From Mesorhizobium loti R88b (lineage in GTDB: Bacteria; Pseudomonadota; Alphaproteobacteria; Rhizobiales; Rhizobiaceae): DNA of 64,000 bases. A program made the position numbers and the translations under genes. Position 1 is the first letter of the stretch. Each line of letters opens with the position of its first letter. The notes under the pieces are model-generated. The model saw only the letters and a program-made list of their open reading frames with translations, was not told where the DNA came from and searched no databases. This document shows positions 9,888 through 50,358 of this stretch, piece by piece. The DNA is taken from contig NZ_CP033367.1 of the NCBI RefSeq assembly GCF_013170845.1, positions 3,101,001 through 3,165,000 on the forward strand, in the 5' to 3' direction.

Positions 9888-9976
9888 TTAAATGCAGATC
9901 GAGGTGCAGCTACCGGCTGTACCGCCGAGAGCTTATCGCGCTTCAAAACCATCGGCTAGGCGTAGGTTTTCTTCAC
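9888..9976 (-). pseudogene. Decayed RiPP precursor peptide gene
   Basis: On the minus strand this is a recognisable copy of the MKK-x-Y-x-x-P peptide family: VKKTYA, then a stop codon where Arg/Lys stands in the others, then MVLKRDKLSAV. One base is missing after the LSAV codons; restoring it gives TAG-S-C-T-S-I-C-I and a stop, closely like the intact neighbour at 9996-10088. The start codon has become GTG. It therefore has a nonsense mutation, a one-base deletion and a weakened start, and is the dead member of a local tandem array. Confidence 0.7.
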
Positions 9977-9995
9977 GCCCTGTTCCCATGTAAAA

Positions 9996-10088
9996 TCAGG
10001 AGCAAGGGTTCGAAGGGGCGCATCCGGCGGTTACGGCCGACAGCTTTTCGCGCTTCAGAAGCGTTGGCCTGGCGTAGGTTTTCTTCAT
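9996..10088 (-). CDS. Putative RiPP (lasso-type leader) precursor peptide 1
   Basis: A 30-residue peptide. The leader MKKTYARPTLLKREKLSAVT carries Tyr5, Pro8, Leu10, Leu16 and Thr20, matching the YxxPxL...T pattern bound by RRE (PqqD-like) proteins in lasso-peptide systems. Leader Gly14 is replaced by Glu. The core after Thr20 is short (AGCAPSNPCS) with two Cys. GGGA lies about 9 bases before ATG 10088. No lasso cyclase, protease or RRE gene is seen within the window, so maturation would have to occur in trans. The assignment as a RiPP precursor rests on the leader pattern and family repetition, not on demonstrated product. Confidence 0.7.
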   Translation of the reverse strand: MKKTYARPTLLKREKLSAVTAGCAPSNPCS

Positions 10089-10108
10089 CGTGTGTTCCCT
10101 GCCAATCA

Positions 10109-10201
10109 TTACCCGCATATTTCTGAAGTGGGGCAGGCGGCGGTCACCGTCGAAAGCCTGTCCCGTTTCACCAAAAGTGGCTTCTGGTAGGTCTTTTTCA
10201 T
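10109..10201 (-). CDS. Putative RiPP (lasso-type leader) precursor peptide 2
   Basis: A 30-residue peptide starting ATG 10201 with GGGGC/AATGGGG upstream. The leader (MKKTYQKPLLVKRDRLSTVT) keeps Tyr5, Pro8, Leu10, Leu16 and Thr20. The core is AACPTSEICG: different residues from peptide 1 but again two Cys, here spaced C-x5-C. Lies 20 bases upstream of peptide 1 on the same strand, so both may share a transcript. A terminator (10278-10305) separates it from peptide 3 and the sRNA promoter upstream. Confidence 0.7.
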   Translation of the reverse strand: MKKTYQKPLLVKRDRLSTVTAACPTSEICG

Positions 10202-10271
10202 GGAATGCCCCATTACCTGACAGTGCCAGAGGTAAACGCATGGGTGCGACCCTTGTCAAGCAATGGCTAAA

Positions 10272-10349
10272 ATAAAAGAAACCCCGCCGGCTGGAGCCTG
10301 GCGGGGGGTTGATTGGAGGATCAACGGATCGAATGGGAGACGATCCGGA
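10272..10349 (-). ncRNA. Candidate EcfG-dependent small RNA A
   Basis: A perfect EcfG promoter (10355-10379) is followed, about 45-70 bases later, by a strong terminator (stem CCCCGCC/GGCGGGG, then TTTCTTTTATTTT). The span has no start codon with a ribosome site. The predicted RNA of about 75 nt contains a small hairpin, TTGAT-CCTCCA-ATCAA, that exposes CCUCC, an anti-Shine-Dalgarno sequence, in its loop. This layout is that of stress-induced regulatory RNAs such as the sigma-T-controlled GsrN of Caulobacter; homology to GsrN is not claimed. Confidence 0.5.
10278..10305 (-). terminator. Rho-independent terminator of small RNA A
   Basis: On the minus strand AACCCCCCGCC, loop around AGGCTCCAGCC, GGCGGGGTTT then TTTTATTTT. 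Also insulates peptides 1-2 from upstream transcription. Confidence 0.7.
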
Positions 10350-10354
10350 TCAAA

Positions 10355-10379
10355 AACGCGCACGCCGCGCGGAAGTTCC
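10355..10379 (-). promoter_or_regulatory. EcfG-type promoter of small RNA A
   Basis: On the minus strand GGAAC (10379-10375), 16-base spacer, CGTT (10358-10355), perfect consensus. It lies just downstream of the peptide 3 gene (10402-10500) on the same strand and points away from it. Confidence 0.7.
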
Positions 10380-10401
10380 GCTCCTTCGTGATCTCCTCGG
10401 T

Positions 10402-10500
10402 TCAGAGGTCCGAGCACTGCGAGAGCGGACATTGAAGCGCCGTCACCGACGAGATTTTCTGGCGCTTCAGTAGCGTCGGCTTCACGTAGTTTTTCTTCAT
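10402..10500 (-). CDS. Putative RiPP (lasso-type leader) precursor peptide 3
   Basis: A 32-residue peptide. ATG 10500 is preferred over the ATG two codons earlier (10506) because GGGGA lies 6 bases before it and the other family members begin MKK. The leader (MKKNYVKPTLLKRQKISSVT) has Tyr5, Pro8, Leu10, Ile16 and Thr20; the core is ALQCPLSQCSDL, again with two Cys. Gene order, spacing and leader similarity indicate tandem duplication with peptides 1 and 2. Function unknown; RiPP role inferred. Confidence 0.7.
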   Translation of the reverse strand: MKKNYVKPTLLKRQKISSVTALQCPLSQCSDL

Positions 10501-40623: not shown

Positions 40624-40710
40624 ATGAAAAAGACTTATGAAAAGCCGACGCTCAGCAAGCGCCAGCAGCTTTCCCGCGTGACGGCGCTGATAATCTCCTC
40701 CGGGAGATGA
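40624..40710 (+). CDS. Putative RiPP (lasso-type leader) precursor peptide 4
   Basis: A 28-residue peptide on the plus strand; GGGGGA lies 5 bases before ATG 40624. Leader MKKTYEKPTLSKRQQLSRVT has Tyr5, Pro8, Leu10, Leu16 and Thr20 like the copies at 10 kb. The core is only ALIISSGR, with no Cys, so a disulfide is not a constant feature. A clean terminator follows (40740-40769). It lies between two EthD genes, an arrangement worth testing for function. No modifying enzyme is nearby. Confidence 0.7.
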   Translation: MKKTYEKPTLSKRQQLSRVTALIISSGR

Positions 40711-50250: not shown

Positions 50251-50358
50251 TTATTGCGGCGTAACCGGGGGCGAGACCGCTGCACCGTTGGTCGCGGCCG
50301 TGAGAAATTTCAGATTTCCCTTCTTGATCAACGTAGGCCGTTCATAAATCTTCTTCAT
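50251..50358 (-). CDS. Putative RiPP (lasso-type leader) precursor peptide 5
   Basis: A 35-residue peptide on the minus strand. Leader MKKIYERPTLIKKGNLKFLT is the best match in the window to the lasso leader: Tyr5, Pro8, Leu10, Gly14, Leu16 and Thr20 are all kept. The core AATNGAAVSPPVTPQ lacks Cys. Preceded by a weak purine-rich site. It ends 1 base from the convergent 49056-50249 gene. No maturation genes are seen nearby, as for the other copies. Confidence 0.7.
   Translation of the reverse strand: MKKIYERPTLIKKGNLKFLTAATNGAAVSPPVTPQ

Follow-up and report, generated by a model that had tools for sequence, protein, structure and literature searches.

The window, a stretch of 64,000 nucleotides of contig NZ_CP033367.1 from Mesorhizobium loti R88b, contains a small array of peptide genes between positions 9888 and 10500. 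The first-pass annotation listed three intact genes here together with a decayed copy; both the count and the coordinates are correct, and all four lie on the minus strand. The first gene (9996..10088) encodes a peptide of 30 residues, MKKTYARPTLLKREKLSAVTAGCAPSNPCS, with the leader MKKTYARPTLLKREKLSAVTA and the core GCAPSNPCS. The second (10109..10201) also encodes 30 residues, MKKTYQKPLLVKRDRLSTVTAACPTSEICG, divided into the leader MKKTYQKPLLVKRDRLSTVTA and the core ACPTSEICG. The third (10402..10500) encodes 32 residues, MKKNYVKPTLLKRQKISSVTALQCPLSQCSDL, with the leader MKKNYVKPTLLKRQKISSVTA and the core LQCPLSQCSDL. Each of the three translations carries the leader pattern described below, and each gene is preceded by a Shine-Dalgarno-like stretch. 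The decayed copy (9888..9976) has a GTG start at 9976 and an in-frame TAG as codon 7, and reads VKKTYA, the stop, then PMVLKRDKLSAVQP...; the end of its leader and its core are altered. Two further genes matched by the leader pattern, absent from the first-pass annotation, lie at 40624..40710 on the plus strand (28 residues, MKKTYEKPTLSKRQQLSRVTALIISSGR) and at 50251..50358 on the minus strand (35 residues, MKKIYERPTLIKKGNLKFLTAATNGAAVSPPVTPQ).

The residues Tyr5, Pro8, Leu10 and Thr20, which had been named as the mark of a lasso-type leader, are present in all three intact array genes. No match above threshold was obtained for the three peptides with NCBIfam and Pfam. Two of them gave sub-threshold matches to lasso_cyano (12.4 and 13.3 vs 33 bits) and DUF5972 (11.4 and 12.2 vs 22.6), and the third gave nothing from either collection, even below threshold.

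The genome was scanned with a degenerate DNA pattern that encodes M-K/R-K/R-x-Y-x-x-P-x-[L/V/F], with the reversed pattern as control. The pattern has 13 matches in the 7.2-Mb genome and its reverse has none. All 13 are short genes with a conserved leader followed by a variable core, and nine are clustered within 130 kb, at 3.08-3.21 Mb. Within the genus, 57 of 81 genomes contain matches, 329 in total with a median of 5 and a maximum of 14 per positive genome; these counts leave out a subfamily with the leader MTKKxYEAPVLRKAGKLSS, which the DNA pattern cannot match. As the control gave 0 against 13 in this genome and 0 in all 81 genomes of the genus, the array is not a product of chance. One odd positive, G271, has a single match that runs into a stop after eight residues. 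When GTG starts were allowed, the 24 negative genomes and G271 gave one match in total, none of it in the 24 negatives, and the reversed control gave 11 matches in nine of the 25. The order-wide scan matched 22 of 219 genomes (six of the genus, 16 others), the reversed control matching seven. Among 19 loci inspected from the 16 genomes outside the genus, family-like peptides were present in those of G072 only; the others were broken by stops, held other short frames or long frames, or had no short ORF.

The anatomy of the family was drawn from 145 distinct peptides, taken from part of the 329 matches; peptides outside the range of 18 to 70 residues, and those lacking a stop inside the stretch, were dropped. 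The leader consensus is YxKPxLxKRxxLSxVTA, in which the search pattern itself determines positions 1-3, 5, 8 and 10, in whole or in part, and leaves positions 7, 12, 13, 16, 17, 20 and 21 free. Of the free positions, Leu16 is found in 144 peptides, Ala21 in 142, Lys7 in 128 and Ser17 in 117. Position 20, which is -2 when cleavage after Ala21 is presumed, is Thr in 110 peptides and Val in 26; all core numbering follows the same presumption. The cores are mostly 7-12 residues long and rich in P, S, G, A and V. Ser occurs in 144 of the 145, and at core 5 in 95, against a mean of 21.6 and a maximum of 37 in 5000 shuffles. Core 5 is also the least variable of core positions 1-10, with an entropy of 1.90 bits. 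In an array from another genus (L222), Ser or Thr stands at core 4 or 5 in ten out of ten cores. Asp or Glu at core 7-9, the ring acceptor of a lasso peptide, is present in eight of the 145 and missing in 137. The two Cys residues claimed for each core hold for the window array and not for the family, where 117 cores have none and 28 have two; the number is never odd. The paired Cys of this minority may form a disulphide, judging by the even counts. Ten of the 145 peptides share a near-identical core like QIVASGVILGE, of the form QI[VI][AS]SG[VI][IV][LV]GE, and come from several species (e.g. L151, L156, L164 and L196). This core type may have a fixed function.

Comparison of core variation across related genomes, a check named beforehand, found the cores changed and the leaders kept. 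The second window gene has putative orthologues in four other genomes, picked by leader likeness and with flanks that align in part, and their cores differ. Across these five sequences the leader has a pN of 0.062 and a pS of 0.412 (ratio 0.15), while in the core both values are 0.566 (ratio 1.00). In 677 pairs whose leaders share 80% identity or more, the mean identity is 0.83 for the leader and 0.28 for the core, the pairs being non-independent and the cores compared ungapped. On these substitution patterns, the leaders are under purifying selection and the cores of putative orthologues diverge freely. A Shine-Dalgarno peak of 1.05 bits is found at -10 upstream of 144 precursor genes, and nothing else stood out as a motif in the 40 bases upstream.

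A whole-genome search for RRE, B2 and cyclase genes, proposed in the first-pass annotation, found all three. The B2 peptidase family (PF13471) has its sole matches at 242 and 275 kb, and the PqqD/RRE family (PF05402), which a divergent RRE may escape, at 242, 275 and 463 kb. With the window at 3.10-3.16 Mb, the claim that no maturation gene lies within 10 kb of the array is right by a wide margin. No precursor in the genome is less than 470 kb from any such match; the closest approach is that of the gene at 934690, which lies 471 kb from the PqqD-family match at 463 kb. This third match (463094-463282) has no B2 partner in the genome-wide PF13471 search.

The match at 275 kb belongs to a canonical lasso locus, here called locus 1 (274.7-280.6 kb; L026 6693-12578), with a precursor, RRE, B2, cyclase, HprK-like kinase and ABC exporter. 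Its cyclase reaches 793 bits with NF033535, against a cut-off of 525. Its own precursor, read by eye, has a YETPSL leader, Thr at -2 and the core GGGGSTAIDASFPAHTPIGDLTFS, with Asp at core 9. The match at 242 kb belongs to locus 2 (240-243 kb), which contains an RRE (PF05402, 46.6 bits vs a cut-off of 23.4), a B2 (NF033537, 69.8 bits vs 33), an HprK-like protein below the Pfam cut-off (19.5 vs 33.3 bits) and a convergent NTP_transf_5 gene. There is no cyclase in it; PF00733 has no match near 240-243 kb and its nearest match is in the lasso locus, at 276 kb. The 13 precursors sit 692 to 2968 kb from locus 2, and the window is 2.87 Mb away. No precursor was found near locus 2 in the R88b genome, nor a remnant of one in three frames of the 531 bases upstream of its RRE. 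The two B2 genes are 33 kb apart, and the two types are similarly linked in other genomes, e.g. G207, G257 and G096.

The PF13471 matches in the 81 genomes of the genus split into a lasso type of 66-83 bits and a locus-2 type of 42-49.5 bits. A 26-bit fragment in G278 was left out of the locus count, as its region matched no locus protein. In the raw table, the locus-2 type is present in 56 of 57 pattern-positive and 0 of 24 pattern-negative genomes; for the lasso type the counts are 55 of 57 and 7 of 24. Once G271 is moved to the negatives, the values become 56 of 56 vs 0 of 25 for the locus-2 type and 54 of 56 vs 8 of 25 for the lasso type; the genomes are related and these counts are uncorrected for descent. 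Two genomes, G252 with four matches and G279 with five, have precursors and locus 2 and no lasso-type B2. The first-pass suggestion that numerous scattered precursors go with maturation genes located elsewhere is borne out by this distribution, and a distant system that serves them is well supported. The lasso-type B2 also correlates with the precursors, and there may be cross-talk between the two systems.

Physical linkage is found in other genomes. In six of 13 genus loci inspected, a leader gene lies nearby: directly upstream of the RRE and in the same direction in four (L120, L121, L122 and L132), and beside the NTP gene in two (L128 and L133). The MTKKxYEAPVLRKAGKLSS subfamily is seen near the NTP_transf_5 gene in L128, L133, L253, L255, L257 and others. 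A scan of 151 genomes of the family found a related B2, of 42-49% identity, in four genomes outside the genus. In the first of these (L222), ten leader peptides stand in tandem adjoining RRE-B2-HprK; L223 has four beside the NTP gene, L224 has one upstream of the RRE, and L221 has no leader peptide nearby.

A B2 scan with one genome per GTDB species gave 105 relatives, of which 80 were kept; contig ends truncate nine of these loci, and several of the records had already been counted among the other loci. They are mostly from Mesorhizobium, with others in Chelativorans, Hoeflea, Nitratireductor, Roseovarius and Kaistia, and in MAGs labelled Ca. Sedimenticola and Phycisphaera. An RRE and an HprK gene adjoin B2 in 80 of 80 loci, with the B2 gene between the two. 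An NTP_transf_5 match lies inside the stretch in 79, and a lasso cyclase match within the 7-kb flanks in one (L268). Precursor genes with the strict leader are present inside the stretch in 28 loci and absent in 52, and looser candidates occur in L276, L284, L299, L314 and L315. Two genomes, G415 and G317, contain the locus and no strict ATG pattern match; a less strict scan of the locus recovered their precursors. A class-wide scan of 289 genomes at E 1e-15 gave no locus besides the R88b genome's own, and the locus is therefore rare outside this group.

In one case the leader led to the enzymes. In G072, a member of another family, three leader-pattern matches stand in a row (MKKPYVPPMV...PVSG; L320 5607-9373). 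When this genome was then searched for B2, the locus turned up 480 bases from them, accompanied by RRE, HprK and NTP genes, as the leader had predicted. A VSG motif recurs in peptides of L315 and of G373, whose B2 match spans one stop codon as scored, and its recurrence in all three suggests a wider related class. The leader is thus conserved beyond the strain, across the genus and further. The first-pass annotation would have been undone by a genome lacking RRE and cyclase together with a leader confined to this strain; the genome has an RRE, a B2 and a lasso cyclase.

The kinase of the locus retains H, GxGK and DD without exception in the 79 ORFs found in the 80 loci, and its model (pLDDT 93.8) has the PEPCK/HprK fold. 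This combination of motif and fold is that of the HprK/PEPCK peptide kinases of the BsfK/LppK type. No lasso peptide kinase appears by name among the best 50 Foldseek and 50 VIA matches listed. The acidic residue of the B2 catalytic triad is, by eye, non-invariant.

The window peptides are most readily explained as RiPP precursors of a hypervariable family that is scattered over the genome, with 13 genes in R88b. The one cyclase-less locus would serve them in trans, and the products would be linear and Ser-phosphorylated. This explanation is considered likely. By analogy with homologues, from which the binding, the phosphorylation and the cleavage site are all taken, the RRE would bind the leader through Y5xxP8xL10, perhaps with the help of basic K/R residues. 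The HprK-like kinase would then phosphorylate the conserved Ser, or a Thr, at around the fifth core residue. Cleavage by B2 after Thr20-Ala21 would release a linear peptide, mostly of 7-12 residues, and a minority of these would hold one Cys pair and a possible disulphide. The proposed class is upheld as far as a RiPP-type precursor with a lasso-type RRE leader (YxxPxL and Thr at -2) is concerned, and is unsupported as regards lasso peptide identity. The other option offered at that time, a new class that re-uses the leader, was partly right.

It might be supposed that the peptides are true lasso precursors matured by the canonical locus at 275 kb, given the YxxPxL leader with Thr at -2, a complete lasso locus in the same genome and a lasso-type B2 in 55 of the 57 pattern-positive genomes. 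However, that locus has a precursor with a ring acceptor of its own, and the lasso-type B2 is missing in G252 and G279 and present in seven of 24 pattern-negative genomes. With no cyclase in the locus that co-occurs with the peptides, and no Asp or Glu at 7-9 in 137 of 145 cores, lasso identity is unsupported; it was rejected as the main reading, and is quite improbable. The cores are, on their composition, probably not lassos. Another possibility is a division of labour: both RREs would accept the leaders, cores with Asp or Glu at 7-9 becoming lassos and all other cores linear phosphopeptides. The lasso precursor and the scattered genes both have a YxxPxL leader, eight cores have the acceptor and the two B2 genes lie 33 kb apart, and RREs of other phyla are described as keeping relaxed specificity in PMC13381572. 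The same source reports that co-resident RREs discriminate in Bacillota, and the co-occurrence here follows the cyclase-less locus more strictly, so that such mixed use is very improbable.

Short signal peptides trimmed by B2 and otherwise unmodified, with the kinase and NTP_transf_5 acting on something else, would fit the short cores of small residues, many of which have no obvious chemistry besides Ser. The constant presence of the HprK-like gene beside B2, in every one of the 80 loci, and the low variability of the core-5 Ser, above shuffles, argue against this, and it is held to be unlikely. Decaying or selfish repeats that are not expressed genes might be suspected from the decayed copy in the array and from the number and scatter of the copies. 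The leader pN/pS of 0.15, the Shine-Dalgarno signal and the co-occurrence with one enzyme locus leave this idea with hardly any credibility. The explanation by trans-served, linear phosphorylated peptides is preferred.

On a wider view, to which an even chance is given, this would be a genus-wide diversity-generating system. One lasso-derived, cyclase-less enzyme set would serve a genome-dispersed repertoire in which the leader stays and, between corresponding sites, one core gives way to another. Such a system, a counterpart of the prochlorosins within the lasso lineage, would make short, linear phospho(-nucleotidyl) peptides, which might act in rhizobia as strain-specific signals or as conflict peptides. 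Orphan small peptide genes, which are easily missed by cluster-centred mining, are here connected with enzymes encoded far away, and natural peptide products numbering in the hundreds are predicted in a well-studied symbiont genus. If the reading is true, linear phosphorylated RiPPs, newly described from Bacillota with an enzyme of the signal-peptidase type, would extend to alphaproteobacteria, with a B2 peptidase in its place. The system is also a tractable case of one enzyme set that tolerates very diverse cores. No description of it in Mesorhizobium was found in the titles and abstract beginnings of the papers listed from the open-licence literature, preprints excluded.

Among published systems, the linear polyphosphorylated peptides (LPP) come closest, a family described by Popov et al. 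2026 (PMC13381572) with an RRE, an HprK-like kinase, an NTP transferase, no cyclase and a linear intermediate. The loci here share the discrete RRE (80 of 80), the HprK-like kinase (80) and the NTP transferase (79), with a cyclase in one of the 80. Also shared, as far as that account goes, are a conserved N-terminal leader with a YxxP motif, variable C-termini, and lasso systems often in the same genome. A core Ser is the modification site in LPPs, the HprK-like kinase LppK being reported there to phosphorylate core Ser3, and a Ser is conserved here. As described, LPPs have an archaeal-type signal peptidase, whereas B2 is found here, and an MsbA-like exporter is listed among their features; no transporter stands out in the ORF list of locus 2. 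Their motif is YxxPxVLxHQxIxFETxxS, unlike the consensus found here. Their precursors, one to three of 35-200 aa, lie in the cluster, whereas those here are of about 30 aa and dispersed over the genome. The family is described in that account as restricted to Bacillota, and the present loci are mainly alphaproteobacterial. The system is filed neither as LPP, as the precursor motif differs, nor as lasso, as cyclase and acceptor are lacking. By analogy, it would work like an LPP system with a lasso peptidase and trans-served precursors.

Phosphorylated lasso peptides, both of the Bsf type (PMC10368454) and of the paeninodin type, share the RRE (B1), the B2, an HprK-like kinase with the same motif residues and the YxxPxL leader. 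BsfK, an HprK-like kinase, is reported there to phosphorylate core Ser3 and to be stimulated by its RRE; BsfA has Ile at -2, and a residue other than Thr is tolerated at this position in Bsf. They differ, as far as that source describes them, in having a cyclase and a ring acceptor in the core, whereas here the cyclase is absent from the locus and the acceptor from most cores. Canonical lasso systems likewise share the leader motif, the discrete RRE (B1) and the B2 peptidase family, but the present locus has no cyclase, and its cores are short and mostly without a ring acceptor. In the prochlorosins (ProcA/ProcM), one enzyme set serves numerous scattered precursors, whose leader is conserved and whose cores are hypervariable, through class II lanthipeptide chemistry. 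That chemistry differs, and the enzymes and leaders are unrelated to those here; the organisation, with one enzyme set, scattered precursors, a kept leader and hypervariable cores, is alike.
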